This document shows, piece by piece, positions 47,418 through 62,825 of a DNA stretch of 64,000 bases. The first letter of the stretch is position 1. Each line of letters opens with the position of its first letter. This DNA comes from Allomuricauda sp. CP2A. Lineage in GTDB: Bacteria; Bacteroidota; Bacteroidia; Flavobacteriales; Flavobacteriaceae. The notes beneath the pieces are model-generated. The model did not search any database. It was given only the letters and a program-made list of their open reading frames with translations, and had not been told where the DNA came from. The position numbers and the translations under genes were made by a program. The stretch is from the NCBI RefSeq assembly GCF_001683915.1, contig NZ_LXTT01000026.1:186001-250000 (forward strand), written 5' to 3'.

Positions 47418-47423
47418 AGGAAT

Positions 47424-48113
47424 ATGAGATGCATTATTGTTGAGGACCAACCACCAGCCCAACGTATTCTTCAAAAATTCATTGAGGACATCAACCACCT
47501 TGAATTAGTGGGTGTTTTTTCTGATGGGCTCCAGGCCATGGAGTTTTTAAACTCAGAAGCTGTGGACTTGATGTTCCTGGACATCCATTTGCCCAAAATA
47601 AATGGTATCGAGTTTTTAAAAAGTATACCGGAGGCCCCCGATGTAATCCTCACCACTGCATTTTCTGAATATGCCTTGGAAGGGTACAATCTTAATGTGG
47701 TGGATTATTTGTTGAAACCGTTCTCTTTTCAACGCTTTTTACAGGCTGTGAACAAGGCCAGCATGAAACAGGAACAGGCCGAAGCCAATTCAACGAACCA
47801 AGTCAATGAGATCTATGTTAAGTCCAGCCATGAGCATATCAAGGTCTCCGTCAATGATATTCTGGCCATCTCTTCGGATTCTGACTACACAGAAATCCGC
47901 ACAGACAAAAGAAAAGTACTTTCCAATGAACCTTTGCGCCATTGGGTGGATATTTTGGGACCGCCCCAATTTTTCCAAGTGCACAAATCGCATATCGTGA
48001 ACACCAAAAAAATAGACCGTATTTCTGGAAACCTGGTATATCTTGTTGATGGCTCAAAAATACCACTTGGACGAGCTTACAAAGATCATTTTCTGAAAAG
48101 TGTTTTGGGGTAA
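47424..48113 (+). CDS. LytTR-family response regulator
   Basis: A 229-residue regulator with a receiver domain (1-115; phospho-acceptor Asp in LMFLDIHLPKING, switch Lys in LLKPF) and a LytTR DNA-binding domain (about 128-229, with EIYVKSSHEHIKVSVNDILA, FFQVHKSHIVNTKKIDRI and PLGRAYKDHF). It works with the kinase encoded just upstream. LytTR proteins bind pairs of direct repeats about 21-22 bp apart. Targets in this genome are not known. Confidence 0.94.
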   Translation: MRCIIVEDQPPAQRILQKFIEDINHLELVGVFSDGLQAMEFLNSEAVDLMFLDIHLPKINGIEFLKSIPEAPDVILTTAFSEYALEGYNLNVVDYLLKPFSFQRFLQAVNKASMKQEQAEANSTNQVNEIYVKSSHEHIKVSVNDILAISSDSDYTEIRTDKRKVLSNEPLRHWVDILGPPQFFQVHKSHIVNTKKIDRISGNLVYLVDGSKIPLGRAYKDHFLKSVLG

Positions 48114-48151: not shown

Positions 48152-48163
48152 GCAATCGATTGT
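48152..48163. promoter_or_regulatory. LacI-type operator upstream of the xylanase gene
   Basis: GCAATCGATTGT matches 11 of 12 bases of the palindrome GCAATCGATTGC. It lies 65 bases before the xylanase ATG and 13 bases before a -7-like TATCTTTC (48177-48184), a position suited to repression. Confidence 0.6.
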
Positions 48164-48228
48164 TTTAACTTTTGACTATCTTTCAAAAAAATAGTGATAA
48201 TCAGCTAACTGCACATAAATTTTAACGA

Positions 48229-49341
48229 ATGAAAACAAAATCAAACAGTACGGGTACAACCTATTTTACACTGACACTCCTTTTTTTGGCAGCCACAGTT
48301 TTTATGGGTTATTCCCAAGAGGAGCCTTCTGAAAAAGGCCTTAAGGATTATTATAAGGACCATTTTCCCGTGGGAGTGGCGGTATCGCCCAGGGCCCTTC
48401 AGGGTGAAAGTGCGGAACTGATCTTGAAACATTTCAACAGCATGACCCCTGAGAACGTTATGAAAATGGGGCCCATTCATCCCGAAGAAGATCGATACAA
48501 TTGGGAGTATGCAGATCAAGTGGCAGACTTTGCGGTGAAGCATAATATGAAATTACGCGGCCATGCATTGTGTTGGCACAACCAAGCTGGTGATTGGATA
48601 TTCAAAGATGAAAATGGCGGACAGGTGAGCAAGGAGGTACTGCTACAACGCCTCAAAGACCATATTACCACTGTGGTAAAGCGGTATAAAGGCAAGATTT
48701 ATGCATGGGATGTGGTCAATGAGGCCATTTCGGATAAAGAAGATGAGTTTTTAAGGGATTCTGAGTGGTACCAAATATGTGGTGAGGACTTTGTTATCAA
48801 AGCATTTGAATACGCCCACGAAGCAGACCCTGACCTAAAACTGTATTATAATGACTATAGTGCCGTGCACCCCATAAAGAGGGACAAGATCTATAAGCTG
48901 GTGAAAATGGTGCAAGATGCTGGAGTGCCTGTCCATGGAATTGGGATTCAGGGGCATTTTTCCATTTATGAGCCTTCTGAGCAAGAATTGCGGGATGCTA
49001 TAGAAAAGTACGCCTCTTTGGGGGTTGAGGTCCAGATAACCGAACTGGACGTTTCGGTGTATGAAAAAGAGCATAGCAGGAGAGACCCGCTGCCCAAGGA
49101 TGAGGACGATGCCTTTAAACCAGAACAAGAACAAAAGCAGATTGAACAATACGAGATGCTGTTCAGGGTTTTTAGGGACTTTGGCGATACGCTTACCGGG
49201 GTGACTTTTTGGAATATCTCGGACCGCTATTCGTGGCTGGATAATTTTCCCGTCCGTGGAAGAAAAAACTATCCCCTTTTGTTTGATGGGAAACTTCAGC
49301 CCAAAAAGGCCTATTACAAAGTAATAGATTTTGAAAAATGA
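48229..49341 (+). CDS. GH10 endo-1,4-beta-xylanase
   Basis: A 370-residue secreted enzyme that cuts the xylan backbone. The signal peptide spans about 1-29 (TYFTLTLLFLAATVFMGYSQ), followed by a single GH10 barrel with no carbohydrate-binding module. Landmarks are HFNSMTPENVMKMG, RGHALCWHNQ, the acid/base Glu165 (AWDVVNEAIS) and the nucleophile Glu272 (VQITELDVSV). GH10 products carrying methylglucuronate on the non-reducing end suit the GH67 enzyme in the same locus. It begins the glucuronoxylan locus and has its own operator and terminator. Confidence 0.95.
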   Translation: MKTKSNSTGTTYFTLTLLFLAATVFMGYSQEEPSEKGLKDYYKDHFPVGVAVSPRALQGESAELILKHFNSMTPENVMKMGPIHPEEDRYNWEYADQVADFAVKHNMKLRGHALCWHNQAGDWIFKDENGGQVSKEVLLQRLKDHITTVVKRYKGKIYAWDVVNEAISDKEDEFLRDSEWYQICGEDFVIKAFEYAHEADPDLKLYYNDYSAVHPIKRDKIYKLVKMVQDAGVPVHGIGIQGHFSIYEPSEQELRDAIEKYASLGVEVQITELDVSVYEKEHSRRDPLPKDEDDAFKPEQEQKQIEQYEMLFRVFRDFGDTLTGVTFWNISDRYSWLDNFPVRGRKNYPLLFDGKLQPKKAYYKVIDFEK

Positions 49342-49362
49342 GAAGCTAATTCATAGAATACT

Positions 49363-49393
49363 AAAAAAGCCCAGCTTGTCTCTGGGCTTTTTT
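49363..49393. terminator. Terminator between xylanase and symporter genes
   Basis: GCCCAG (49369-49374) pairs with CTGGGC (49382-49387), extended by flanking A6/T6. It serves the convergent xylanase and symporter genes. Confidence 0.88.
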
Positions 49394-49429
49394 ATTGATA
49401 TATGGTTTGTTCTTTCTTCCTGGCCAGTA

Positions 49430-51082
49430 CTAGCCTGTAAAGTAAGACAGAATCGCTATCACAATGACAACCAGCAATACGGAAAGTACAACATCTATGG
49501 TGCTGTAACTTCCTTTGGTATCTATACGGTCTTCAGGAGACAGTGTGCCGAAGGACAGTCCCTTGATCAACGCATAATTTGGTGGCGCAGTGGCCAAGGT
49601 CACCGCAATACACAATGCTACGGAAAATAGGAACATAAAAATGGCCATGTGTGCAAAATTCACCGTGGCAAAAGCAAACATGAAACCAGATACAGCTTCA
49701 CCAGATGCAATTTGTGGTTGATAATAGATTTCTGACCCCAAACGCAGTATCAGCAACACCAAACCAGCCATAAGCGTGGTAATGGCCGCTTTTGAGTTGA
49801 CCCTTTTCCATATAATCCCCAAAAGGAACACGGTGGTCACCGGAGGGGCAATATAGGATTGAACGTTCTGAAGGTATTGGTACATGACACCGCCTCCAAT
49901 TTTATCCATAATGGGAATCCAAATGATACCCAATACCACAATCATTCCGGTAGCTACCTTACCAATGGTCAATAATTGGCGCTCCGTTTTTTCTGGGCGC
50001 AGCTTTTTATAGATATCGATGGTGAAAATAGTGGAACATGAATTGAACACCGATGCCAATGAACTCATCAAAGCGGCCATAAGACCACCGGCTACCAAAC
50101 CTTTCAATCCAACTGGGAGAAGGGTCTTTACCAACATTGGAAAAGCCCTATCCGCACGTTCCACAGCAAAAACTTCTGGGTTTTGTATGGTCAATGCAAA
50201 AGCAATGATACCGGGAATCAAGAAAATTAAAATGGGCATCAATTTAAGATAGGCTCCAAAAATGGCTCCCCGTCTACCAATTTTAATGTTGTTGGCTGCA
50301 AGGGTTCGCTGCACAATATATTGATCGGTACACCAATACCAAATCCCCACAATGGTTCCCCCGAACAATAAACCTGTCCATGGAAAATCCGGGTCACTCA
50401 TGGGACGCCACATGTTAAAATGATCTGGACTCACGGAGGTCACGGTTTCATGGAGTTGTCCCCATCCACCTACTTCTTTAAGACCCAGATAAGTAATGAT
50501 CAATGAACCTAAAATGAGGATGATGGTCTGTAGGGTCTCGGTGTAGATCACAGCCTTCATCCCTCCAATAATGGTATAAATTCCAGTAAAGATCACTACG
50601 CCAATGGCTCCGTACCAAAACGGAATGCCCAATAGTTCAGAAACTACAATACCTCCGGCGTAAATGGTCACCGAAACCTTGGTCAAAACATAAGCGACCA
50701 ATGAGAAAATAGAAAGAAACCAACGAGAGCGACTATCGAATCGTTTTTCGAGAAACTCGGGCATGGTGAATGCTCCACTTCGAATATAGAACGGCAGGAA
50801 TAACCAACCGAGCAATAATACGATCCATGCATGAAGTTCGTAATGGGCCATGGGCGTACCCGATTCAAATCCCGTACCGGCAAGCCCCACCACGTGCTCC
50901 GAACCAATGTTCGAGGCAAAAATAGAGGCTCCGATTACGAACCATCCCACGTTTCGGCCAGCTAAAAAGTAGTCCTCGGTATCTTTGTTCTTTTGGGAAA
51001 CCACCCACACGGCCACACCGATCAGGGCCAAAAAATAGATGCCCAGGACAATCCAGTCCGGCCTTTCTAAAACTGATTCCAT
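49430..51082 (-). CDS. Sodium:solute symporter, probably for xylose
   Basis: A 550-residue inner-membrane transporter of the SSS/SGLT type with about 14 helices. Landmarks are DYFLAGRNVGWFVIGASIFA, SNIGSEHVVGLAGTGFESGT, the sodium-site region of the fifth to eighth helices and GLVAGGLMAALMSSLASVFN. SGLT relatives carry glucose, galactose or xylose. Its position as the third gene of the xylB-xylA unit makes xylose the likely substrate. It has a C-terminal hydrophobic helix and 32 bases separate it from xylA. Confidence 0.92.
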   Translation of the reverse strand: MESVLERPDWIVLGIYFLALIGVAVWVVSQKNKDTEDYFLAGRNVGWFVIGASIFASNIGSEHVVGLAGTGFESGTPMAHYELHAWIVLLLGWLFLPFYIRSGAFTMPEFLEKRFDSRSRWFLSIFSLVAYVLTKVSVTIYAGGIVVSELLGIPFWYGAIGVVIFTGIYTIIGGMKAVIYTETLQTIILILGSLIITYLGLKEVGGWGQLHETVTSVSPDHFNMWRPMSDPDFPWTGLLFGGTIVGIWYWCTDQYIVQRTLAANNIKIGRRGAIFGAYLKLMPILIFLIPGIIAFALTIQNPEVFAVERADRAFPMLVKTLLPVGLKGLVAGGLMAALMSSLASVFNSCSTIFTIDIYKKLRPEKTERQLLTIGKVATGMIVVLGIIWIPIMDKIGGGVMYQYLQNVQSYIAPPVTTVFLLGIIWKRVNSKAAITTLMAGLVLLILRLGSEIYYQPQIASGEAVSGFMFAFATVNFAHMAIFMFLFSVALCIAVTLATAPPNYALIKGLSFGTLSPEDRIDTKGSYSTIDVVLSVLLVVIVIAILSYFTG

Positions 51083-51114
51083 AATTGTTAGTTAGTTTGC
51101 TTAGTTATTGTTGT

Positions 51115-52440
51115 TTAGATGTACTGATTGATAATGTTCTCAAACAGTTCCTGCTTACCACTGTGCTTTTTAATGTCTTGGTTTGCCGATGCATGACCAT
51201 GAAGGTCTTCCAAAGTCAGCTTGCCATTTTCAAACGCTTTTCCGGTACCAGAATCGAATGAACTATATCGCTCTTTACGCATACTAATATAATTGGAATT
51301 TTCCAATATGTCATTTGCGGCCAATAAACCTCTTGCAAATGCATCCATTCCTCCAATATGGGCATGGAAGATATCCTCAAGGTCTGTAGAGTTTCTTCGG
51401 ATTTTGGCATCAAAGTTAACTCCACCACCTTGCAAACCTCCAGCTTGAAGAATGACGAGCATGGCTTGGGCAAGTTCGTACACATCAACAGGAAATTGAT
51501 CGGTGTCCCATCCGTTTTGGTAATCCCCACGGTTGGCATCAATGCTTCCCAACAAGTTGTTGTCCGCGGCTACCTGGAGCTCATGCTCAAAAGTGTGTTG
51601 CGCCAAGGTAGCGTGGTTCACCTCAATGTTCAATTTAAAATCATCCAAAAGGTCATATTTGCTCAAAAAGCCCAAAACAGTGGCCGAATCAAAGTCGTAC
51701 TGGTGTTTTGTGGGCTCCATAGGCTTGGGCTCAATAAAGAAGGTTCCCTTGAAACCTTGTTTGCGGGCATAGTCCTTGGCCATGTGAAGGAATCGGGCCA
51801 TGTGGTCCTGTTCGCGACCCATGTCGGTATTCAAAAGGGACATGTAGCCTTCACGGCCTCCCCAGAAAACATAATTTTCACCGCCCAATTTAATGGTGGC
51901 ATCCAGTGCGTTTTTCACTTGTGCCCCGGCAAAGGCGACCACATCAAAATCTGGATTGGTCGCAGCACCGTTCATATATCTTGGGTTGCTGAAGCAGTTG
52001 GCGGTACCCCAAAGGAGTTTTACTCCAGATGCCGCCATTTTCTCTTGGGCATAATCGGTAATGATTTGCAATCTTTTTTCTGATTCTGCCAAAGTGTTGC
52101 CCTCGTCAATCAAGTCAAAATCATGAAAACAATAGTAAGGCGCACCAATTTTGGTGATGAACTCAAAAGCGGCATCCATTTTGTCCTTGGCCTGTTGAAT
52201 GGGGTCAGTGCTGGTGAGCCATGGAAAATCCTGTGTCGGTGCCCCAAATGGGTCGCCCCCCACTCCTGTGAACGTATGCCAATAGGCAATGGCGAATTTA
52301 AAATGTTCCTTCATGGTCTTTCCACCGACCACTTTGTTCTCATCGTAATATTTAAATGCTAAGGGATTGTCCGATTTCTTTCCCTCAAAAGAGATTTTCC
52401 CTATACCTTTAAAATACTCTTTGTCTCCTTTCGTAATCAT
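51115..52440 (-). CDS. xylA: Xylose isomerase
   Basis: A 441-residue cytoplasmic enzyme converting D-xylose to D-xylulose, class II length. Motifs are YYCFHDFDL (catalytic His and Asp region), [40 protein letters not shown] with the metal-ligand Glu, [20 protein letters not shown] and the His/Asp end ([20 protein letters not shown]). It follows xylB with a 12-base gap. Confidence 0.97.
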
Positions 52441-52452
52441 AGTTTTAGTTAT

Positions 52453-53937
52453 TCAATTGTCAATATATTCCTCTAGTTGTTTTTTCCATTTATCGTAAGC
52501 TTCGCGGTACTTTTCCGCTGGGTCATCTGGCTGATAGCTCAACTGAACGGCATCGGTTGCCGTGGCCTCTCCAATGCTTTTAAAATCTCCAAAAGCAAAA
52601 GCCGCTGCCCTTGCAGCACCAACAGCCCCTGTGGTCTCTACGATATCGATACGGCTATTGGTCAGCGTAGCGATGGTCCTGGAGAAGATTCCCGCCCTGA
52701 ACAAGTTATCATTTCCAGCTTTAATGGAGGCAATATCAACCCCGTCATTTTTTAGGATTTCCATACCGTACACAAAAGAAAAGGCGATGCCCTCCAATGC
52801 AGCCCTAAAAATATGGGGTGCTTTGTGCACATTGAAGTTGAGGTTCAACATCCTAGATCCTTTGTTGCTGTTGTTCAACATGCGTTCCGCACCGTTACCA
52901 AAAGGCAAGATATAAAGTTCCTCTGAACCAATGGGCACCGTTTCGGCCTGTTCGTTCATACTATTGTAGGAAAGCGCATTGGTCAACTCGTTCCGAACCC
53001 AGCTATATTGAATTCCTGTGCCATTGATGCACAGCAATTTGCCGATCCTGATGTTTTCTTGGTCATGGTTTACATGGGCAAAGCTATTGATCCGTGTATG
53101 CTCTTGGGTATTCTTTTGGCCCGAGATGGCATAGACCACACCAGAAGTGCCTCCGGTAGCGGCTATTTCCCCGGGTTCCATAACATTCAGTGCCAAAGCA
53201 TTGTTGGGTTGGTCCCCGGCACGGTACATGATCGGAATTCCCTCAGGCAATCCAGATTCCAGCGCACCTTGTTTGCTGACCACCCCTTGTTCAGAAAAAG
53301 AAGGCCGTATCTCGGGGATGAGGGAAGGGTTAATTCCGGCATCTTCCAAAAGCCATGATGCGACATCATTTTCCTTAAAGTCCCACATAATTCCTTCGGA
53401 AAGTCCTGAAGGAGATGTTACACATGATCCAGAAAGTTTCAGGGCGATGTAGTCGCCAGGCAACATAAACTTGTGGATTTTTTTATAAGTGTCCGGCTCA
53501 TTGTCTTTGACCCATTTTAATTTGGAGAGCGTAAAATTCCCGGGGGAATTCAACAAACGCTCCACACATTTTTCTGTGCCGGATGCTTGGAACAACTGCT
53601 CGCCTATGTCAACGGCACGGCTATCGCACCATATGATGGAAGGCCGTAACGGTTGAAGATTTTTGTCAACGGTGACCAATCCGTGCATTTGGTATGATAT
53701 TCCAATACCTTTGATATCGTTCTTGGAAATAGTATTCTTGGAAATCAACTCGTGGGTGGCCGCACATAAATGTTTCCACCACAGCTCGGGATCCTGTTCT
53801 CCCCAGCCCAGGTTGATTGATATAATGGGCATTTCTTTTTTTGGATATTGGGCAATGTCCAATACGCTGCCATCAGCTGTATTTATAAGGGCTGCTTTAA
53901 TAGATGAGCTGCCAATATCGAAACCTATCCAGTGCAT
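52453..53937 (-). CDS. xylB: Xylulokinase
   Basis: A 494-residue FGGY-family kinase that phosphorylates D-xylulose to xylulose-5-phosphate. The N-terminal ATPase fold begins IGFDIGSSSIKAALIN. The substrate region QMHGLVTVDKNLQPLRPSI includes the MHG motif. The C-terminal half has GGTSGVVYAISGQ and KAGNDNLFRAGIFSRTIATL. First gene of the xylB-xylA-symporter operon, behind an operator that overlaps its promoter. Confidence 0.95.
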   Translation of the reverse strand: MHWIGFDIGSSSIKAALINTADGSVLDIAQYPKKEMPIISINLGWGEQDPELWWKHLCAATHELISKNTISKNDIKGIGISYQMHGLVTVDKNLQPLRPSIIWCDSRAVDIGEQLFQASGTEKCVERLLNSPGNFTLSKLKWVKDNEPDTYKKIHKFMLPGDYIALKLSGSCVTSPSGLSEGIMWDFKENDVASWLLEDAGINPSLIPEIRPSFSEQGVVSKQGALESGLPEGIPIMYRAGDQPNNALALNVMEPGEIAATGGTSGVVYAISGQKNTQEHTRINSFAHVNHDQENIRIGKLLCINGTGIQYSWVRNELTNALSYNSMNEQAETVPIGSEELYILPFGNGAERMLNNSNKGSRMLNLNFNVHKAPHIFRAALEGIAFSFVYGMEILKNDGVDIASIKAGNDNLFRAGIFSRTIATLTNSRIDIVETTGAVGAARAAAFAFGDFKSIGEATATDAVQLSYQPDDPAEKYREAYDKWKKQLEEYIDN

Positions 53938-53972
53938 AAATCAATATTGAATAATTTTTTGATACAATTTTT

Positions 53973-53998
53973 CAAATATAGGTATCGAAATCGATTGC
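53973..53998 (-). promoter_or_regulatory. xylB promoter with LacI-type operator
   Basis: On the minus strand TATATTTG (53980-53973) is a perfect TAnnTTTG -7 element, 36 bases before the xylB ATG. The dyad at 53987-53998 (plus-strand GAAATCGATTGC, 11 of 12 matches to GCAATCGATTGC) lies six bases upstream, between the -7 and -33 positions. Repressor binding there would block polymerase. The regulator gene starts 192 bases away on the other strand. Confidence 0.65.
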
Positions 53999-54138
53999 AT
54001 AAATTTATTTCTCCAATTATTTTGATGTAAAATGTCGTTTTTTAACAAATCTTTTTTTTCTGTTAGTAATAGTGGAGAGCGAACTAAAGGAAAAAAATTA
54101 TTCTAAAAGGAAACTAAAAGTTAAATTAGTACCTTGAA

Positions 54139-54169
54139 ATTCAAGTCTTTTTTGTTCTTTGACTTGAAT
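54139..54169 (+). promoter_or_regulatory. Inverted repeat in the leader of the LacI-family gene
   Basis: ATTCAAGTC (54139-54147) and GACTTGAAT (54161-54169) form a perfect 9-bp inverted repeat with a 13-base T-rich spacer. The left arm is part of a second dyad, TTGAA-A-TTCAA (54134-54144). It ends 20 bases before the ATG, so it may be an RNA hairpin covering the ribosome site or a protein-binding site. Confidence 0.5.
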
Positions 54170-54189
54170 AACCTAAGCGATTTTGACAG

Positions 54190-55248
54190 ATGAAGATTAA
54201 AAAGGAGGTTACCATTTATGATCTCGCCAAAGAATTGAACTACTCTCCCTCGACTATTTCAAGAGCTTTGAACAACCACAAGAGTATCAGTAAGAAAACC
54301 ATAAAGTTGATCAAGGAGGCAGCTGTGGAAATGGGATATCGGCCCAATAATTTGGCTGCGGGCCTCAGAAACAATAGAAGCAACACCATTGGCATACTTA
54401 TTTCCCACATAAGCAGGCCTTTTCAAGCGTCCCTGATCAGTGGGATAGAGGAAACGGCCAGAAAAGCAGGCTATAATGTCTTGATCAGTCAATCCAATGA
54501 TAAATATGAAAATGAGATCAGCAATACCAATGCCTTATATGATAGTAGGATTACGGGTCTGATCGTATCCTTGTCCATGGAAACCGTGGATATGGGACAC
54601 TTCCAAAAATTCATAGACAAGGGCATACCCATTGTTTTTGTGGACAGGGTCCCGGATAATTTCAATTCTTATAAGGTTGTAATTGACAATTACACAGCGG
54701 GGTATTCGGCAACCAAGCATTTAATAGAGCAAGGATGCACTAGAATAGCACATTTTGCCGGGGCGCAGCATAGGAATATTTATGAAGAGCGGAAAAAGGG
54801 ATATTTGGATGCCCTTCGGGAATATGGACTGCCCATAGAGGAAGACCTTATCATCCATTTTAAGACATTGAGTTTTGAGGAAGGGAACAAGGCCACCAAA
54901 AAACTTCTAAAAATGCCCAACCCGCCAGACGGTATATTTTCTTCAAATGATACCGCTGCGGTGAGTGCCATTATGTGTGCAAAGAAAATGGGAGTAAGTG
55001 TTCCCCAAGATCTTGCCGTGATAGGGTTCAATGATGACCCAATAGCTTCAATTGTGCAGCCCTCACTTTCCACCGTATCACACCCGGCCAATAAAATGGG
55101 CACTATCTCTGCAAGACGCATTCTAGACCACTCTGTTCAAAATTATGACAACGACCTGTCTGAAATAACGGTTTTGGGAACGGAAATCATAGTGAGGGAG
55201 TCCTCCTTAAAAAAGACACCTGTACTAGAACCCAAACAATCGCGGTAG
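54190..55248 (+). CDS. LacI-family transcriptional regulator of the xylan locus
   Basis: A 352-residue regulator: HTH (VTIYDLAKELNYSPSTISRA, with LAAGLR as hinge helix) and a periplasmic-binding-like sensor domain (about 65-340; IGILISHISRPFQASLISGI, IFSSNDTAAVSAIMCAKKMG, VIGFNDDPIASIVQPSLSTV). It sits between the xylose operon and the TRAP/uxaC operon, and matching 12-bp palindromes stand at the three promoter regions of the locus. The inducer is probably xylose, a xylo-oligosaccharide or a uronate. Its 3' end overlaps the convergent TRAP gene by 24 bases. Confidence 0.93.
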   Translation: MKIKKEVTIYDLAKELNYSPSTISRALNNHKSISKKTIKLIKEAAVEMGYRPNNLAAGLRNNRSNTIGILISHISRPFQASLISGIEETARKAGYNVLISQSNDKYENEISNTNALYDSRITGLIVSLSMETVDMGHFQKFIDKGIPIVFVDRVPDNFNSYKVVIDNYTAGYSATKHLIEQGCTRIAHFAGAQHRNIYEERKKGYLDALREYGLPIEEDLIIHFKTLSFEEGNKATKKLLKMPNPPDGIFSSNDTAAVSAIMCAKKMGVSVPQDLAVIGFNDDPIASIVQPSLSTVSHPANKMGTISARRILDHSVQNYDNDLSEITVLGTEIIVRESSLKKTPVLEPKQSR

Positions 55249-56511
55249 CCAGAGACTCAATTCTGGGAAAACACTCACCAATACCAGGCCAAGGATCATA
55301 GCCAAAAATAAGGGCAGAAGGGGGCGTATCACCTTTTGAATACTAGTTTTGGCCACACCAACCCCTATAAAAAGTACTGACCCAACAGGAGGTGTACATA
55401 GACCAATGCAAAGATTCAACACCATGATGATTCCAAAATGCACGGGATCAATGCCCAATGCCGTGGTAACGGGTAAAAAGATAGGTGTAAAGATGAGTAC
55501 GGCCGGGGTCATATCCATAAAAATGCCCACAATGAGCAAAATAATATTGATGATAATGAGCACCATGATTTTGTTATCGCTCAAGCCCAACAACGCCTCG
55601 GTAACCACCTGGGGGATGTTTTCGTAGGAGAGCACCCACGACATCGCCATGGACATGGCAATCAACAACATCACAATGGCTATGGTTGATGATGATTCCA
55701 CCAAAATAGACCGAATATTTTTAAAAGAAACCTCTTTGTACAGGGCAGCCAACACCAAGCAATAGATAACGGCCACAGAAGACGCCTCGGTAGCCGTAAA
55801 AATTCCGGCAACTATGCCTCCTATCACAACTACCAATAAAAATAGACTTGGTAGAGCTTTCACAAATGTGCTGAACACTTTTCTAAGGGAACTCCTGTCT
55901 GCGGTGGGGTATCCTTTTCGTTTGGCCCAGATGTAGGCCACTACCATCAATAAAAGACCTGTAAGGATGCCGGGCAGATAGCCAGCCAAGAACAAAGCAC
56001 CTATGCTCACCCCTCCACTCGCCACGGAGTAGATGATAAACACATTACTTGGCGGAATAACCAATCCTGTTGTGGCGGAAGTAACATTCACGGCCACCCC
56101 AAAACCCTTGTCATAGCCAGATTCTTCCATTTTGTCAGACATAAAACCACCGATTGCAGCTGCAGCTGCACCAGCTGACCCGGCAATGGCACCAAACAGC
56201 ATGGCGGCAACAATGTTCACATGGGCCAATCCGCCGGGAAGAGACCCCACCAGAGCTTTGGCAAAATCAATCAACCGTTCGGCGATACCCCCTTTGTTCA
56301 TGATATGTCCCGCTAGAATAAAGAACGGGATGGCAAGGATTGAAAAACTGTCCAAACCGGTTACAACACGCTGTGCAATGGTGGTAAGTGCCGGAAAGGT
56401 ATCCACACTCACCAACAGGGTCAGCAAGGATGAGATTCCCAAGCTCCATGCCACTGGAACCCTAATGGAAATCAATACAAGAAAGCTCAGTATCAGAATG
56501 CTAATTTCCAT
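55225..56511 (-). CDS. TRAP transporter large permease (DctM type)
   Basis: A 428-residue inner-membrane protein with about 12 helices, the ion-coupled channel part of a TRAP importer. Typical segments are FILAGHIMNKGGIAERLIDF, GAIAGSAGAAAAAIGGFMSD, VNVTSATTGLVIPPSNVFII and CIGLCTPPVGSVLFIGVGVA. It overlaps the small permease gene by 11 bases. Because uxaC is upstream in the same unit, glucuronate or an aldouronate is the likely cargo. Confidence 0.94.
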   Translation of the reverse strand: MEISILILSFLVLISIRVPVAWSLGISSLLTLLVSVDTFPALTTIAQRVVTGLDSFSILAIPFFILAGHIMNKGGIAERLIDFAKALVGSLPGGLAHVNIVAAMLFGAIAGSAGAAAAAIGGFMSDKMEESGYDKGFGVAVNVTSATTGLVIPPSNVFIIYSVASGGVSIGALFLAGYLPGILTGLLLMVVAYIWAKRKGYPTADRSSLRKVFSTFVKALPSLFLLVVVIGGIVAGIFTATEASSVAVIYCLVLAALYKEVSFKNIRSILVESSSTIAIVMLLIAMSMAMSWVLSYENIPQVVTEALLGLSDNKIMVLIIINIILLIVGIFMDMTPAVLIFTPIFLPVTTALGIDPVHFGIIMVLNLCIGLCTPPVGSVLFIGVGVAKTSIQKVIRPLLPLFLAMILGLVLVSVFPELSLWLPRLFGF

Positions 56512-56980
56512 TTTTCAAGTTTTTGATGATGACCACAAGGTCCAAAAGTTTATAATAGCAGATAAAGAGACCTGATATGGGCATAACTATATATACAAAG
56601 CCAATGGGCAGTTTCAGTGCCGGGGATGTTTGCCCCAGCTCAAAAGAGATATAGACATAGCGGAGCCCTCCAATTAAAAAGACTGTGATTGCAAACAGGA
56701 GCACAACAGAGGTAATAACAATGTCCAGGATTTTTTGGTTGCGTTCGTTTAAGTATTGTGGCAATAGATCAATGGCAATGTGCAATTTTTTGCCCGATGC
56801 ATAGGCAGCACCCAGAATACTCAACCAAATCAGGAGATATCGCGCCAATTCATCGGTCCAAGAACTCTGGCTGTCCAGAATATAGCGTGTAATGACCCCC
56901 CAGAACACATCCAAGACCATGATGCCCAATAAAATGGAGAGAGTCCATTCCAAAAAAAGGTCTATGCGACTTTTCATCAT
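56501..56980 (-). CDS. TRAP transporter small permease (DctQ type)
   Basis: A 159-residue protein with four membrane helices. SWTDELARYLLIWLSILGAA is the DctQ signature, and SGKKLHIAIDLLPQYLNERN follows. It pairs with the large permease and overlaps both neighbours (4 and 11 bases), so the three TRAP subunits are translated together. Confidence 0.93.
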   Translation of the reverse strand: MMKSRIDLFLEWTLSILLGIMVLDVFWGVITRYILDSQSSWTDELARYLLIWLSILGAAYASGKKLHIAIDLLPQYLNERNQKILDIVITSVVLLFAITVFLIGGLRYVYISFELGQTSPALKLPIGFVYIVMPISGLFICYYKLLDLVVIIKNLKNGN

Positions 56981-57954
56981 TTTACGCTCTTAATTTGTTT
57001 TGTGAGTTCATATAAGTGCTCATCTTTTTCTTTTAGTGCTTCAAACATGGATTCGGATTTTTCTTCAAAAAGGGATTTATCGGGGTAAGAAACCTCCACT
57101 CCCGCTTTTTTTACTTCATCCAAAGCCTCTTGTTCCGCTTTTTTCCAAAGTTTATGCTGAAATTCGGTAGCTTCTGTAGCGGCTTCTGTTATCCATTTTT
57201 TCTCTGATTCGTTCAATTTATCCCAAATAATGGTGCTGACCACCAGTATGTCCGGGACAGAGGTATGCTCATCCATGGATAAGTACTTGCAGACTTCATA
57301 GTGTTTTGAGGTATAAAAACTGGGCAAGTTGTTCTCTGCGCCATCCACAACCCCTTGTTGGAGGGAAGTGTACAGTTCTCCCCATGAGATCGGGGTAGGG
57401 GAGCCTCCAAATTGTTTGACCATTTCTATGGCAGTAGGGCTTTGCATGACCCGAATCTTTAACCCTTCCAAGTCTTCAGGTGCATCAATGGGTGTGTTTT
57501 TGGTGTAAAATGAACGATTTCCGGCATCGAAATAGGTCAATCCCTTCAACCAATATTTTTCGGAGCCCGAAAGAAGCTTCTTTCCAATGGGGCCATCATA
57601 TACCTTGAACCGGTGTTCATCATCACGAAACAAATATGGATAACCCAGCACCCTAAGGTCAGGTGAGAAGTTTTCCATCACCGCCCCAGAAACCTTGGTC
57701 ATCCCCAGACTGCCTATTTGAAGGAGCTCCAAGCATTGCTGTTCCGAACCTAGCTGGCCACTCGGATAAATCGCCAGTTTTAATTTTCCTTCCGATTTTT
57801 TGGCCACTAGATCGGCCATATAGACCATAGCCTCATGAACAGGGTGCGTAACGCCAAGACCATGGGCCAATTTTATGGTGTTTGCCGCTCTTTTATCGGG
57901 TTGACAGGAAAGCAGCAGCAGGAAAGAAAAAATGATAACTATCCGGAAGTTCAT
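56977..57954 (-). CDS. TRAP substrate-binding lipoprotein (DctP type)
   Basis: A 325-residue extracytoplasmic solute receptor. Signal peptide with lipobox LLLSC (Cys at 17), so it is predicted to be membrane-tethered rather than free in the periplasm. DctP motifs are IKLAHGLGVTHPVHEAMVYM, LAIYPSGQLGSEQQCLELLQ, the arginine segment GLKIRVMQSPTAIEMVKQFG (Arg contacts the carboxylate) and GVVDGAENNLPSF. It is 81 bases downstream of uxaC, in the same direction, and probably binds a uronate. Confidence 0.92.
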   Translation of the reverse strand: MNFRIVIIFSFLLLLSCQPDKRAANTIKLAHGLGVTHPVHEAMVYMADLVAKKSEGKLKLAIYPSGQLGSEQQCLELLQIGSLGMTKVSGAVMENFSPDLRVLGYPYLFRDDEHRFKVYDGPIGKKLLSGSEKYWLKGLTYFDAGNRSFYTKNTPIDAPEDLEGLKIRVMQSPTAIEMVKQFGGSPTPISWGELYTSLQQGVVDGAENNLPSFYTSKHYEVCKYLSMDEHTSVPDILVVSTIIWDKLNESEKKWITEAATEATEFQHKLWKKAEQEALDEVKKAGVEVSYPDKSLFEEKSESMFEALKEKDEHLYELTKQIKSVK

Positions 57955-58035
57955 AGAGCTTTTTTTTTTGAAAAAAACTCTTTAGCAACCAACTTTGATT
58001 TCATGCCTATCATAAATAAAAGTATAATTAATGGC

Positions 58036-59466
58036 TTATTTTTTTAAGGTAAGGTTTTCCACAAAACTTGGGAACTGAAAAAATTCCTTGGCATTGTTAT
58101 AGGTAATGTCCTGCACAATTTTTCCTATCCATTTCATGTCGTTGGGTATTAGCCCGGCTTTAATGTCATTGCCCAAAATGTTGCAGAGTACCCTTCTGTA
58201 ATACTCATGTCTAGGAAAGGATAAAAAGCTTCGGCTATCCGTGAGCATCCCCACGGAACAACTCAATAGTCCCATATTGGAAACAACATCCAGCTGGTCT
58301 TTTATGCCATCTTTTTGGTCCAGAAACCACCAAGCGGCCCCAAATTGGACCTTACTTTTTATATTGTCTCCAGTAAAATTCCCGGCCATGGTGGCAAATA
58401 CTTCATTGTCCGCTGGGTTTGAATTATAGAGGATGGTCTTAGGGAGACTGCCACTGTTGTTCAATCGATTTAAAAATCGGGCCAATTGTTCTGCCTGTGG
58501 ATAATCGCCAATACTGTCAACCCCGGCATTGATGCCAATTTTTGTCAGAATGGCCTTGTTGGTATCCCTAATGGGCCCCAGATGAAGCTGCATCACCCAG
58601 TTTTTTTCAGCATACAATTGCCCCAACAGATGAAGAATGGCAGATTTGTACTGTCTGATTTCTTTTTGCGAAATTGATTTTTCTTCAAACCTTTTGGAAA
58701 GGATTTGGTTGATTTCCTTTTCCGTATAGTCAAAACCATAGGCGTGAACGAGCCCGTGATCTGAGAGGCGGCACCCTTTTTCATGAAAATAGTCAACCCT
58801 TTTTTTAGCGGCCTCGCGCAATGATTCAAAATCTGTAACGGTAATGCCGGTCATTTTTGAAAGGGTGGACAAATAATCCGCAAAATCTACCTTTTCAATA
58901 TCGATCAGTCCATCTGGCCGAAATGTGGGAAGCATCGTCAGTGGACAATCAGACCCTGCCATTGTCGTGTGATGGGAGAGATCGTCCAACGGGTCATCGG
59001 TAGTGCATACCACCTCAACATTCATTCTATTGACCAGACTACGTGACGAGAAGGTGGGTTTTTTCAATTCAGAATTGCATTGCTCGTATATTTCTCCAGC
59101 CGTTTCGGGAGTTAAAGGCGCATCTATCCCAAAGTACCGACTTAGCTCCAGGTGGGTCCAATGGTACAAAGGATTTCGCAGCGTGTAGGGTACGGTTTGT
59201 GCCCATTTGTGGAACTTTTCTTCATCGGTGGCCTTCCCCGTAATAAACTTTTCGGGGATGCCCAAGGCACGCATGGCCCTCCATTTATAGTGATCGCCCT
59301 CTATCCAAAGCTGGGTAATGTTTTCAAACTTTTTGTCCTCGGCAAGTTCATTGGGTGGGAGATGGGAATGATAGTCAATTATAGGCTGGTTTTTTGCATA
59401 ATCATGATAAAGCGTTCTGGCATAATCTGTTTCCAACAAAAAGTCCTCATGGATAAATTTCTGCAT
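58036..59466 (-). CDS. uxaC: Glucuronate isomerase (uronate isomerase)
   Basis: A 476-residue cytoplasmic enzyme of the amidohydrolase superfamily that turns D-glucuronate into D-fructuronate. Landmarks are IIDYHSHLPPNELAEDKKFE (metal His pair HSH), CTTDDPLDDLSHH, MQLHLGPIRDTNKA and GAAWWFLDQKDGIKDQLDVV, ending in SRSFLSFPRHEYYRRVLCNI. It links the GH67 product glucuronate to the SDR and mannonate dehydratase encoded to the right. Confidence 0.96.
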   Translation of the reverse strand: MQKFIHEDFLLETDYARTLYHDYAKNQPIIDYHSHLPPNELAEDKKFENITQLWIEGDHYKWRAMRALGIPEKFITGKATDEEKFHKWAQTVPYTLRNPLYHWTHLELSRYFGIDAPLTPETAGEIYEQCNSELKKPTFSSRSLVNRMNVEVVCTTDDPLDDLSHHTTMAGSDCPLTMLPTFRPDGLIDIEKVDFADYLSTLSKMTGITVTDFESLREAAKKRVDYFHEKGCRLSDHGLVHAYGFDYTEKEINQILSKRFEEKSISQKEIRQYKSAILHLLGQLYAEKNWVMQLHLGPIRDTNKAILTKIGINAGVDSIGDYPQAEQLARFLNRLNNSGSLPKTILYNSNPADNEVFATMAGNFTGDNIKSKVQFGAAWWFLDQKDGIKDQLDVVSNMGLLSCSVGMLTDSRSFLSFPRHEYYRRVLCNILGNDIKAGLIPNDMKWIGKIVQDITYNNAKEFFQFPSFVENLTLKK

Positions 59467-59483
59467 GCTATGTTTTCTCTTTT

Positions 59484-59708
59484 TTATAAGTTAATCAATG
59501 GTCCCAGTGCTCTTTTTTGTGGTCCCCAGTCCAAAAGTCTCTGGAAAAACTGAGGCAGTATCTTGTTCCACCAGTTGCAAGGAGGAAACCAATGGTGCCC
59601 AATTTTGGTAGCGGTAGCGTTGTGCCTTGTGGGGTCTATCTTTTCTTCCAGGGAAAGTCTTGAAGTCAAATCGGTTGTATGCTTGAATATTGATTTGAAA
59701 AACTTCAT
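59484..59708 (-). CDS. Small unknown protein at the head of the uxaC-TRAP operon
   Basis: A 74-residue frame starting MKFFKSIFKHTTDLTSRLSL and containing an aromatic, His/Trp-rich middle (TKIGHHWFPPCNWWNKILPQ). No family is recognised and there is no signal peptide or membrane helix. It ends 17 bases before uxaC, in the same direction, and is the first frame after the operator region, so it would be expressed with the uronate genes. It could be a real small protein or just leader sequence. Confidence 0.45.
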   Translation of the reverse strand: MKFFKSIFKHTTDLTSRLSLEEKIDPTRHNATATKIGHHWFPPCNWWNKILPQFFQRLLDWGPQKRALGPLINL

Positions 59709-59773
59709 GGTTTGATTTTGATACGTATGGTTTTTATAAAATTGCTTTAAATTTCGTAAAAATATCGATTTTT

Positions 59774-59785
59774 GCAATCGATTGC
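59774..59785. promoter_or_regulatory. Perfect LacI-type operator between the uxaC and aguA units
   Basis: GCAATCGATTGC is a perfect 12-bp palindrome. On the minus strand it stands 9 bases before a -7-like TATTTTTA (plus 59757-59764) of the uxaC/TRAP unit. Two weaker relatives lie on the aguA side: GCAATTGATTGA (59833-59844) and a core AATCGATT (59855-59862), 23 bases before the aguA ATG. The divergent promoters are thus both covered. Confidence 0.65.
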
Positions 59786-59884
59786 GTTAAACATTTTGTT
59801 AATCTATGAATTTTTTACTTATTTTACTCGGTGCAATTGATTGATTTACCAATTAATCGATTTTTTTTTGTCAAATCCTAAACT

Positions 59885-62068
59885 ATGAAACACTCCACAA
59901 AGTTGAAAATAACATATTTTTTTGGCATTTTCCTGTTTGTTTCCGTTACATCCTTTTCAATGTCAAACGGATACGAACTCTGGCTAAATTACAACAAGAT
60001 TACCGATGAGGACGTATTAAAAGAATATCGCTCCAATATTCAAGCAGTTTCTTTGGTAGGAACCAGTGGCACCCATCTGGCCATAAAAAAAGAATTGCAG
60101 ATGGGGCTTGAAGGATTGTTGGACACCAAAGTGGTTTTTGAAAACTATAATAATGGAACAGGCAACCAATTGATAGTTTCAACATACGATGACCTGCCCC
60201 AAGATTTTAGGAACATTGTTAAAGTAGAGGGCCTTACCAAAGAAGGGTATATCATCAAAACCGTGCAAATGGATGGCAAATCCTATGTTGTGGTGTCTTC
60301 AAAAGAAGATGTTGGTCTCCTTTATGGGAGCTTCCATTTTCTAAGATTGTTGAAGATGCACACTTCTCTAGCGAACATCGATATTACGGAAATACCCAAA
60401 GTGGATATTAGGGTGTTGAACCATTGGGACAATATGGATCGGACCGTTGAACGCGGTTACGCCGGGTTTTCCATATGGAATTGGCACACCTTGCCCGGTT
60501 ACATTGACCAAAGGTATATAGATTATGCCCGCGCAAATGCTTCGGTGGGCATCAACGGAACAGTCCTGACCAATGTGAATGCCAATGCACTGATATTGAC
60601 ACCGCACTATCTGGAAAAGGTAAAAGCCTTGGCCGAAGTTTTTCGGCCGTATGGCATAAAAGTTTATTTAACGGCACGTTTCTCAGCACCGATTGAGATT
60701 GGAGGATTGGAGACCGCCGACCCCCTTGATCCAGATGTGATCCAGTGGTGGAAAGATAAAACCAAGGAAATTTACACCGTGATTCCAGATTTTGGCGGGT
60801 TTTTGGTAAAGGCCAATTCCGAAGGGCAGCCTGGGCCACAGAACTACGGCAGGAGCCATTTGGATGGGGCAAACCTTCTTGCCGATGCCTTGGAGCCCCA
60901 TGGAGGATTGGTCATCTGGCGTGCTTTTGTCTATTCGGAGCATGACCCTACGGATAGGGCAAAACAGGCTTATTCTGAATTCATTCCAGAAGACGGTAAA
61001 TTTAAGGACAATGTGTTGCTACAGGTTAAAAATGGAGCCATTGACTTTCAGCCCAGAGAGCCTTTTCATCCCATGTTCGGGGCCATGCCCAATACCCCTC
61101 TGATGATGGAATTTCAGATTACTAAGGAGTACTTGGGGTTTGCCACCCATTTGGCATTCTTGCCCAAACTCTATGAAGAAGTGTTGAAGTCGGATACCTA
61201 TAGAAAGGGAAAGGGGTCATTGGTGGCCAAGGTGATAGATGGTTCTTTGGACAATAAAAAGCTTTCCGGTATGGCCGGAGTATCCAATGTGGGTACAGAC
61301 ATCAATTGGACGGGACATCCTTTTGGCCAGGCAGATTGGTATGGGTTTGGACGATTGGCCTGGGATCCTTACATGGATTCCGAAGCTATTGCCGATGAAT
61401 GGCTCCGTGTCACCTTTACCAATGATGAAAAGTTTGTGGATCCCGTTAAAAAGATGATGATAGAATCCAGGGAGGCCGTTGTCAATTACATGAACCCGCT
61501 TGGATTGCACCATATTTTTGATACGGGGCACCATTACGGTCCCGGACCATGGGTGGGCAATCTTTCAAGGCCAGAATGGAATCCGGTGTATTACCACAAA
61601 GCAGACAGCGAGGGGGTAGGATTCGATAGAACAAAAACAGGCAGTGATGCACTGTCGCAATATGCCCCGGAAGTGGAAGAAATGTTCACACATCTGGAAA
61701 CCTGCCCTGAAGAATACTTGTTGTGGTTTCATCATTTGCCATGGGACTATACCTTAAAAAATGGAAGGACCCTTTGGGATGGTTTGGGGTTGAAATATCA
61801 AGAAGGCGTAGATCAGGTTCGTGATATGATCAAGACCTGGAAGGCCATGGAACCCCACGTTGATGATTTGCGTCATCATCAGGTTTCCATGCTATTGGAG
61901 ATACAGCTAAAAGAGGCCATATGGTGGAAAGATGCTTGCATGCTTTACTTCCAGACCTTCTCAAACATGGATTTTCCTAAGGAAATGGAGGCCCCAGAAC
62001 ACACATTGGAATATTATAAATCATTGAAATTTCCATACGCACCGGGTATCCGGCCAAGATGGAATTAA
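59885..62068 (+). CDS. aguA: GH67 alpha-glucuronidase
   Basis: A 727-residue enzyme that removes (4-O-methyl)glucuronate from the non-reducing end of xylo-oligosaccharides. An N-terminal signal-like segment (ITYFFGIFLFVSVTSFSMSN) suggests export to the periplasm. Three GH67 domains are present. By comparison with the known family triad, the acid is Glu313 (VKANSEGQPGP) and the bases are Asp387 (GAIDFQPREP) and Glu415 (FQITKEYLG). First gene of the plus-strand unit, 16 bases before the SDR. Confidence 0.95.
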   Translation: MKHSTKLKITYFFGIFLFVSVTSFSMSNGYELWLNYNKITDEDVLKEYRSNIQAVSLVGTSGTHLAIKKELQMGLEGLLDTKVVFENYNNGTGNQLIVSTYDDLPQDFRNIVKVEGLTKEGYIIKTVQMDGKSYVVVSSKEDVGLLYGSFHFLRLLKMHTSLANIDITEIPKVDIRVLNHWDNMDRTVERGYAGFSIWNWHTLPGYIDQRYIDYARANASVGINGTVLTNVNANALILTPHYLEKVKALAEVFRPYGIKVYLTARFSAPIEIGGLETADPLDPDVIQWWKDKTKEIYTVIPDFGGFLVKANSEGQPGPQNYGRSHLDGANLLADALEPHGGLVIWRAFVYSEHDPTDRAKQAYSEFIPEDGKFKDNVLLQVKNGAIDFQPREPFHPMFGAMPNTPLMMEFQITKEYLGFATHLAFLPKLYEEVLKSDTYRKGKGSLVAKVIDGSLDNKKLSGMAGVSNVGTDINWTGHPFGQADWYGFGRLAWDPYMDSEAIADEWLRVTFTNDEKFVDPVKKMMIESREAVVNYMNPLGLHHIFDTGHHYGPGPWVGNLSRPEWNPVYYHKADSEGVGFDRTKTGSDALSQYAPEVEEMFTHLETCPEEYLLWFHHLPWDYTLKNGRTLWDGLGLKYQEGVDQVRDMIKTWKAMEPHVDDLRHHQVSMLLEIQLKEAIWWKDACMLYFQTFSNMDFPKEMEAPEHTLEYYKSLKFPYAPGIRPRWN

Positions 62069-62084
62069 TCTTATAAACACATTA

Positions 62085-62825
62085 ATGGACAAAAAAGTAG
62101 CCATAGTAACCGGAGGTAATTCGGGATTGGGTTTGGCAACCGCAAAGAAGTTTTGCGATAACGGAATAAAAACTTACATCATTGGCAGGACAAAGGACCG
62201 GACAGAAGAAGCTTGTAAACAACTAGGAGAAAATGCCGTCCCGGTGATTTTTGATTTGACCCACCTTGAAGGCATTCCCGGAATGGTCGAGGATATTTTT
62301 AAAAAAGAAGGGCATATTGATGTTTTGGTGAACAATGCCGGAATCAATCTAAAGAAAGAATTTATCGAAGTAACCGATGCCGAATTCGAGCAAATCATCA
62401 AAACCAATGTGTTCAGTGTATTTGCCATTAGCCGGGAAGTGGTCAAAAAAATGAAGGAGACCGGAGGGGGTAGCATTGTGAACATCAGTTCCATGGCGGC
62501 CCAGTACGGTATGCCCAAAGTGATCGCCTATTCAGCCAGTAAAACGGCCATTGAGGGGATGACCCGCGCCATGGCGGTGGATTTGGCCCAATATAACATT
62601 AGGACCAACTGTATTGCGCCTGGTTTCATAAAAACCAAAATGACGGCCAAGGCACTCGACTCCGACCCACCCCGTAAAGAAAAAGTGTTCTCAAGAACCC
62701 CAATGGGGAAAATGGGAATGCCAGAGGATATAGCCGATGCAGTTTATTTCCTCGCTTCGGATGAGGCCAAATTTGTTACAGGAACCGTTCTCCCAGTTGA
62801 CGGTGGAAATAGTATAGGATTTTGA
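62085..62825 (+). CDS. SDR oxidoreductase, probable fructuronate/mannonate oxidoreductase
   Basis: A 246-residue classical SDR: TGGNSGLGLATAKKF (NAD binding), NNAGINLKKEF, the catalytic Ser in IVNISSMAAQYG and YSASK, ending TGTVLPVDGGNSIGF. The sequence only says SDR. Its place between aguA and uxuA, in a locus with uxaC but no visible long-chain UxuB, makes reduction of D-fructuronate to D-mannonate the likely task. It is 2 bases from uxuA. Confidence 0.88.
   Translation: MDKKVAIVTGGNSGLGLATAKKFCDNGIKTYIIGRTKDRTEEACKQLGENAVPVIFDLTHLEGIPGMVEDIFKKEGHIDVLVNNAGINLKKEFIEVTDAEFEQIIKTNVFSVFAISREVVKKMKETGGGSIVNISSMAAQYGMPKVIAYSASKTAIEGMTRAMAVDLAQYNIRTNCIAPGFIKTKMTAKALDSDPPRKEKVFSRTPMGKMGMPEDIADAVYFLASDEAKFVTGTVLPVDGGNSIGF

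Follow-up and report, generated by a model that had tools for sequence, protein, structure and literature searches.

Conserved palindromes as candidate operators of a LacI-family regulator in the glucuronoxylan locus of Allomuricauda sp. CP2A

How are the genes that degrade glucuronoxylan and consume its sugars switched on together? The question is raised by a stretch of 64,000 nucleotides from Allomuricauda sp. CP2A (contig NZ_LXTT01000026.1, positions 186,001 to 250,000; hereafter the window), in which the palindrome GCAATCGATTGC recurs upstream of genes for xylan depolymerisation, xylose use and uronate use, with the gene for a LacI-family regulator (54190..55248, plus strand) in their midst. 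We consider it probable, at roughly 80%, that these palindromes are the operators of this protein, which would repress the adjoining genes until a uronate-type sugar releases it.

The palindrome in the window, the genome and the relatives

A scan of the window placed the perfect copy of GCAATCGATTGC at 59774-59785 and copies with one mismatch at 48152-48163 (GCAATCGATTGT) and 53987-53998 (GAAATCGATTGC), exactly as the initial annotation had given them, and the genome context confirmed that all three are intergenic and lie before genes. These three are real, but they do not complete the set, as a fourth, weaker match with two mismatches is located at 59833-59844. The even palindrome with its central CG and its distances to the translational starts (65 bp for the GH10 xylanase gene, 49 bp for xylB and 99 bp for the GH67 gene) agree with the properties listed for LacI-family operators in the sections of PMC4052901 considered here, namely an even palindrome, a central CG and a position usually 30-140 bp before the start codon.

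The 4.27 Mb genome of the organism was searched with the 12-mer as well as with the degenerate motif GCAAYCGRTTGC learned from the relatives, employing the reversed pattern as control. Allowing one mismatch, GCAATCGATTGC occurs at 13 places versus a single one for the reversed pattern. Four of these are on the contig of the window, including the three sites named above. Seven places are intergenic and six lie inside open frames, one of which, on contig C127, is a 102-aa frame and a doubtful gene. Besides the three sites of the window, the intergenic places comprise a perfect site on C41, 60 bp upstream of a GH115 alpha-glucuronidase gene, a site on C14, 162 bp upstream of a GH43 gene (both enzymes assigned by Pfam), C66:261264, 11 kb beyond the window, with an FG-GAP/ASPIC gene on one side and a GDSL gene on the other, and a site on C82. 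The degenerate motif GCAAYCGRTTGC is present in four exact copies, all of them intergenic and upstream of a gene, that is of GH67, GH115, GH43 and the FG-GAP/GDSL pair. With up to one mismatch it occurs at 27 places, the reversed pattern at 15. Of the 23 inexact copies, 19 fall into open frames of at least 100 aa (two of them short, 102 and 144 aa). Two of the remaining four, which are intergenic, are the xylanase and xylB sites. Frequent copies inside genes had been named beforehand as the observation that would speak against the operator; the exact motif shows none, the inexact one shows many. One-mismatch copies are mostly chance occurrences across the genome. Since 19 of the 23 are in open frames, we do not claim weak sites elsewhere, and the xylanase and xylB sites, which belong to this class, need other support. 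The intergenic one-mismatch sites C82:4858 and C145:9948 face no sensible target and were dropped.

To compare relatives, 299 genomes of the family were searched with the LacI protein of the window. Among the matches listed, 27, that of the window among them, align over almost their full length at 52-100% identity and were taken as orthologs; below this group the identity of the listed matches falls to 46% or less, with the exception of a partial 52% match in genome G159 (residues 35-288). This first set gave 26 ortholog loci (L061-L086), drawn from 23 genomes, together with 14 paralog loci (L087-L100). A second set comprised at least 80 loci taken from named records, the nearest LacI proteins listed there being those of Flagellimonas pelagia (92%) and Allomuricauda abyssi (89%). 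From this set, 67 loci (L138-L204) were added to the 26 ortholog loci, and removal of 13 near-duplicates left 80 distinct ortholog loci, the window excluded; 13 more distant loci (L205-L217) stand outside these counts. Only genes preceded by a gap of 40 bp or more were counted, a site was a match with at most one mismatch, and gene classes were set by BLAST against the proteins of the window and a few others.

In these 80 loci, a site precedes 50 of the 54 GH67 genes and 15 of 348 genes outside the reference set. GH3 genes have a site in 32 of 39 cases, mostly by way of a shared divergent promoter. For the other classes, sites were observed upstream of SusC-like genes (7/17), xylB (6/13), UxaC (3/4), UxuB (3/7), GH43 (4/11), GH10a (3/15) and GH115 (2/13). 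Moreover, all 4096 palindromic 12-mers were ranked blindly on 20 GH67 promoters of other genomes (19 loci of the first set and L122). At one mismatch GCAATCGATTGC came first with 14 promoters, followed by its variant GCAACCGGTTGC with 11; the best unrelated palindrome reached four, and the shuffled maximum was five. At two mismatches the variant GCAACCGGTTGC leads with 19 versus 18 for GCAATCGATTGC.

Whole genomes gave a corresponding picture when 24 ortholog genomes, our own included, were set against 24 hand-picked genomes of the family without an ortholog. The former contain 52 exact sites, distributed over 18 genomes (reversed control, 11), versus 12 sites in nine genomes of the latter (control, 9), where eight adjoin other LacI genes and four are inside genes. 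With frames of at least 150 aa counted as coding, the same 52 sites separate into 48 in 89 kb of non-coding and four in 742 kb of coding sequence in the loci of the ortholog genomes.

Individual sites and their promoters

The best-supported site is the primary operator O1, the perfect copy at 59774..59785, which is identical together with its near flanks in L138 (Flagellimonas pelagia) and L139. It had been described as standing between the uxaC and aguA units; it does, although it is really the operator of GH67, the start of uxaC being 307 bp away. O1 is followed on the plus strand by a candidate -33 element, TTTTG (59794..59798), a candidate -7 box, TATTTTAC (59820..59827), and the fourth match mentioned above, the second operator O2 (GCAATTGATTGA, 59833..59844), which coincides with the predicted start of transcription, 5 bp past the -7 box. 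The boxes were predicted from the -7 consensus TAnnTTTG at -12 to -5, as given in the part of PMC9723704 considered here. In GH67 promoters of the relatives, a TTTG follows the operator at 8-9 bp in 17 of 51 rows, and a -7 box comes next. A second operator with at most two mismatches was found in nine of 52 GH67 promoters (shuffling gives 0.04 on average and 1 at most). It is placed exactly 5 bp behind the -7 box in six, namely the window, L138, L139, L146, L147 (where it has three mismatches) and L148; L064 displays the same arrangement. In L061, L062, L141, L142 and L150 the second match is found elsewhere, and most other GH67 promoters have none.

The operator at 53987..53998, which reads GCAATCGATTTC towards xylB, lies between xylB and lacI within the spacer of the predicted xylB promoter. 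Its candidate -7 box TATATTTG (53973..53980, minus strand) is located 6 bp behind the operator, with no clear TTG at -33. L138, L141 and L142 share the site together with its 6-bp gap to the -7 box (which reads TATATTTA in L141), and L070 has a site at another distance. Counting the window, seven of 24 xylB promoters contain a site with at most one mismatch within 250 bp. Xylose control is therefore confined to some lineages. The proportion of seven in 24 xylB versus 50 in 54 GH67 promoters places the core of the regulon in the use of the glucuronoxylan side chain, and the xylose part would be younger or more labile. As to autoregulation, a frequent trait of LacI-family factors, the same palindrome is situated 191 bp before lacI, and among LacI unit leaders of the 80 loci 26 of 79 have a site.

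At the xylanase gene, the one-mismatch operator GCAATCGATTGT (48152..48163) covers the -33 region of a candidate promoter whose predicted -7 box is TATCTTTC (48177-48184). Its position, this fitting box and equal variants before GH115 in L063 and L077 speak for it. It is nevertheless the least certain of the sites, because L138 and L139, the two nearest kin, have no xylanase at that place, which makes a footprint impossible.

In SusC-type promoters of the relatives, 12 of 21 rows have a relaxed -7 box starting 18 bp past the operator, against at most 2 after shuffling. At this distance the operator would supply its TTG as the -33 element; among GH67 promoters the same spacing occurs in six of 51 rows. 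The predicted overlap of operator and core promoter at xylB, at SusC-type promoters and at O2 is the arrangement classically associated with repressors. As the boxes are predicted, this geometry favours repression and does not prove it.

Taken together, we envisage that LacI most likely binds GCAAYCGRTTGC and blocks RNA polymerase as long as glucuronoxylan is lacking. The block would be exerted from within the promoter at xylB, over the -33 region at the xylanase gene, and at GH67 from two operators flanking the core promoter, with O1 just upstream of -33 and O2 at the predicted start. LacI would then be released by a sugar derived from the side chain, probably glucuronate or a uronate akin to it, which would open the whole pathway, comprising the xylanases, the GH67 and GH115 alpha-glucuronidases, GH43, uronate uptake and isomerisation and, in this lineage, also xylose use and perhaps the promoter of the regulator itself. 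An effector of the uronate type is most likely, because GH67 is the constant target and because UxaC, UxuB and the TRAP transporter are found in the units.

The regulator and competing explanations

The protein encoded at 54190 combines an N-terminal LacI helix-turn-helix (HTH) domain (PF00356, 46.2 bits) with a periplasmic-binding-protein-like sensor domain (Peripla_BP_3, PF13377, 118.5 bits), and a sequence search of the PDB yielded general LacI relatives only, with CcpA first. Seven genes with a LacI-type HTH are present in the genome, and the helix SPSTISRALN is found only in that of the window; the other six have IATVSYVLS (two), ISTVSKALK, PSAVSKAMS, ASTISKALN (a 124-aa fragment) and VSTVSKAIH. 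Paralogous LacI branches of the relatives have other palindromes, ACAATCGATTGT or GCAAACGTTTGC, before their own genes. At GH67 sites, YSP helices mostly occur with T..A or T..G as inner bases, and of 23 cases with LAT helices 20 have C..A and eight an outer A; this correlation parallels the phylogeny, and we do not offer it as proof.

In a midpoint-rooted tree of 75 LacI proteins, about half of the kept orthologs plus others, the protein of the window groups with those of L139, L062 and L141. The ortholog clade (support 98/91) includes Saprospiraceae, Lewinella, Fulvivirga, Marinoscillum and a Cytophagales bin. Members of the branch next to it stand beside genes for uxuB-like dehydrogenases, most of them 28-38% identical to the enzyme of the window, and most of these genes could encode other dehydrogenases. 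A third, well-supported branch unites the LacI proteins of L205, L207, L212, L214 and L216, encoded beside GH67, GH115 or xylB, with those of L096, L099 and L127-L136. Thus, in L207, L212 and L216, which are Bacteroidia or Bacteroidales bins with an exact site between GH115 and LacI, the regulator belongs to a branch different from the ortholog clade. Mapped on the tree, the xylan label requires 12 changes, compared with a mean of 25.3 after shuffling; as there is no one xylan-linked clade, a single origin of this role is not claimed. In L096, L127, L128, L130, L134, L135 and L136, a LacI branch of about 40% identity has the same operator core, mostly between lacI and a putative SusC-like gene of about 1000 codons. 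This branch may represent a regulon of its own, whose operator would be either convergent or ancestral.

Several observations weigh against the 54190 protein as a repressor acting through these palindromes. The palindromic core was picked after the window had been seen, and at two mismatches the window holds four copies, an ordinary number given a mean of 3.10 in 100 shuffles, 37 of which reach four; the window alone is therefore no proof, and the significance comes from elsewhere. Six of the 24 ortholog genomes have no exact site. Within the 80 loci, four of the 54 GH67 genes have no site by the gap-limited count, and unit leaders of other classes have none or nearly none (UxuA 0/14, XylA 0/5, transketolase 0/5, symporter 1/12); in L079 and L159 regulator and GH67 are present with no site within 300 bp. 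At 17 of 24 xylB loci no site is found within 250 bp, and the xylanase site, with its one mismatch, belongs to a class that is mostly chance genome-wide and has no footprint. Moreover, other LacI branches share the same core elsewhere (L095, L096, L127-L136, L207-L217). The motif alone thus does not name the protein, the notion of one motif for one protein was rejected, and the assignment rests on synteny. Finally, the O1 of GH67 promoters in this branch is centred at about -52, upstream of -33, a place compatible with activation.

This last point leads to the strongest competitor, in which the same LacI protein, bound at O1, would serve as an activator or dual regulator at GH67. The 17 of 51 GH67 rows with O1 8-9 bp upstream of TTTG would suit such a role, but O2 at the predicted start, the xylB operator within its promoter and the SusC operators over -33 occupy repressor positions, and most studied LacI-family regulators are repressors. 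We hence regard activation as improbable.

A little less probable still is that another LacI protein, such as the one encoded beside a second xylose isomerase gene on contig C20 (L030), binds the xylB and xylanase sites, leaving GH67, GH115 and GH43 to the 54190 protein. It is true that a lacI gene adjoins the second xylA (G000:C20) and that control of xylB is not general among the ortholog loci; however, the helix of the C20 protein differs (VSVSTVSKAIH), the xylA-lacI gap on C20 is devoid of such a palindrome, and the xylB site faces the 54190 gene, the two being conserved together in L138, L141 and L142. Chance palindromes in AT-rich intergenic DNA, which the unremarkable two-mismatch count of the window and the abundance of one-mismatch copies in open frames might suggest, are highly improbable in view of the 50 of 54 GH67 promoters and the blind ranking, and conservation excludes chance for 59774 and 53987, though not for 48152.

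Genes of the locus, dispersed targets and known systems

The gene assignments of the initial annotation were upheld by Pfam. The GH10 xylanase gene (48229..49341, plus strand; PF00331) is directly preceded by a LytS/LytR-type pair of kinase and response regulator (46419-48113), which is kept in L138 without the xylanase. On the minus strand, the xylB-xylA-symporter unit consists of the xylulokinase gene xylB (52453..53937; FGGY_N/C), the xylose isomerase gene xylA (51115..52440; AP_endonuc_2, a xylose isomerase-like TIM barrel, the name being taken from the sequence) and, by gene order the last, a sodium:solute symporter gene (49430..51082; SSF) probably serving xylose uptake. Beyond lacI follow, likewise on the minus strand, the TRAP transporter genes dctP-dctQ-dctM (55225..57954; DctM and DctP by Pfam, dctQ by position and sequence only), probably for uronate uptake, and the glucuronate isomerase gene uxaC (58036..59466; PF02614). 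The GH67 alpha-glucuronidase gene aguA (59885..62068, plus strand; Glyco_hydro_67N/M/C) is the first gene of an operon, continued by a short-chain dehydrogenase (SDR) gene of uxuB-like role (62085..62825, plus strand; Pfam) and running on past 64000. Further genes of this operon presumably encode a UxuA-like protein, a second GH10, an esterase and a CE15-like protein, names assigned by the look of the sequences. In Flagellimonas pelagia a GH3 gene is inserted between uxaC and the GH67 operator; the corresponding interval 59467-59773 of the window contains no GH3 gene, only a 72-codon frame (59493-59708, minus strand) with no Pfam match.

That one operator and one LacI regulator govern depolymerisation, uronate and xylose genes is supported by these data, the xylose part holding for some lineages only (7/24 xylB). 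Contrary to the prediction, the regulon is not compact. Exact sites are also present at GH115 (C41), at GH43 (C14) and at the FG-GAP/GDSL pair, and the relatives add SusC-like receptors, GH3, GH11, transketolase and a second UxaC. Outside the locus, the other ortholog genomes contain 27 exact sites, two of which are inside genes (L118, L121). Their targets include SusC-like receptors (one by Pfam, the rest by likeness), GH43, GH10, GH11 with CBM60, GH115, GH67, transketolase, a second UxaC, an IlvD/Edd-type dehydratase, an aldehyde dehydrogenase and a 3-keto-disaccharide-hydrolase-type gene, as well as DUF6807 genes and the GDSL gene found beside the locus of the window. The regulon is thus larger and dispersed, with alpha-glucuronidase as its constant core.

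Some of these targets deserve mention. An exact operator lies 15-203 bp upstream of the DUF6807 genes in L106, L112 and L117 (genomes G175, G049 and G108), which adjoin Gfo/Idh/MocA oxidoreductase genes in L106 and L117 and may possibly be part of (4-O-methyl)glucuronate use. The GDSL-type gene beside the locus has an exact site 100 bp before its start (L014:13264), and a similar gene in another genome has one at 122 bp (L124:3985). In G175, an exact operator 205 bp upstream of the transketolase gene (L102:4038) links the regulon to the pentose phosphate pathway, and in G113 one is situated 27 bp upstream of the IlvD/Edd-type gene (L125:4007), perhaps a sugar-acid dehydratase.

The switch is well supported, and a catabolic regulon under a LacI-family protein is of a fairly ordinary, already known kind. 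In Xanthomonas and Caulobacter, LacI-family regulators of the XylR type act on xylan and xylose genes through a palindromic operator; they differ in phylum and operator, and uronate genes are there under a separate regulator. In gut Bacteroides, control of xylan loci is commonly attributed to hybrid two-component or sigma/anti-sigma regulators. In the portions of the reports on Bacteroides considered here, the LacI regulators UxuR, UxaR and KdgR for uronates form one taxon-specific branch (Ravcheev et al. 2014, PMC4052901; Ravcheev et al. 2013, PMC3878776, Table 2), and xylose is under the NrtR-family protein XylR (Ravcheev et al. 2013, PMC3878776; 2014, PMC4052901). Compared by description, the regulator of the window resembles UxuR (BT1434), UxaR and KdgR in family, phylum and the connection to uronate catabolism. 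In contrast to that table, which lists uronate pathways only, and to the confinement of the Bacteroides UxuR regulon to glucuronate catabolism, sites are found here also before GH67, GH115, GH43, GH10 and xylB and, in relatives, SusC-like genes.

For the beta-1,4-xylan systems of Bacteroides ovatus, Prevotella bryantii and Xanthomonas, the section of PMC12125979 considered names LacI-family or HTCS regulators. Gramella flava JLT2011, likewise one of the Flavobacteriaceae, has a xylan polysaccharide utilization locus (PUL) for which a figure legend names lacI together with aguA, xylA, xylB, xynA and susC, its genes being induced by xylan to levels of 2.3 to 89.6 relative to glucose (PMC5306329). 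The parts of that paper covered name no operator or LacI target, and those of a review on hemicellulase regulation (PMC10766802) no LacI xylan regulon of Bacteroidota. Among the matches listed from the open-licence literature, there was no account of this operator or of a LacI glucuronoxylan regulon in Bacteroidota, and none of the listed text matches to operator strings concerned, by title and abstract, a bacterial sugar operator.

A further, rather speculative thought is that Flavobacteriaceae and near kin turned a LacI protein that sensed uronates into the master switch for glucuronoxylan use as a whole. A minor acidic side sugar, and not xylose or xylo-oligosaccharides, would then be the signal for depolymerising the backbone, and the regulon would point to genes for 4-O-methylglucuronate use (DUF6807). 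Its odds are lowered because the neighbouring branch is linked to genes that are only distantly uxuB-like.

For the family, the finding means that a readable LacI operator is conserved across Flavobacteriaceae, with the same LacI clade also in Saprospiraceae, Fulvivirga and Cytophagales bins and a related branch with the operator in Bacteroidales bins. The operator provides a simple handle that predicts dispersed xylan genes and adds DUF6807 and GDSL/FG-GAP genes as candidates to the pathway, and the regulon allows a direct test of which part of glucuronoxylan is sensed.

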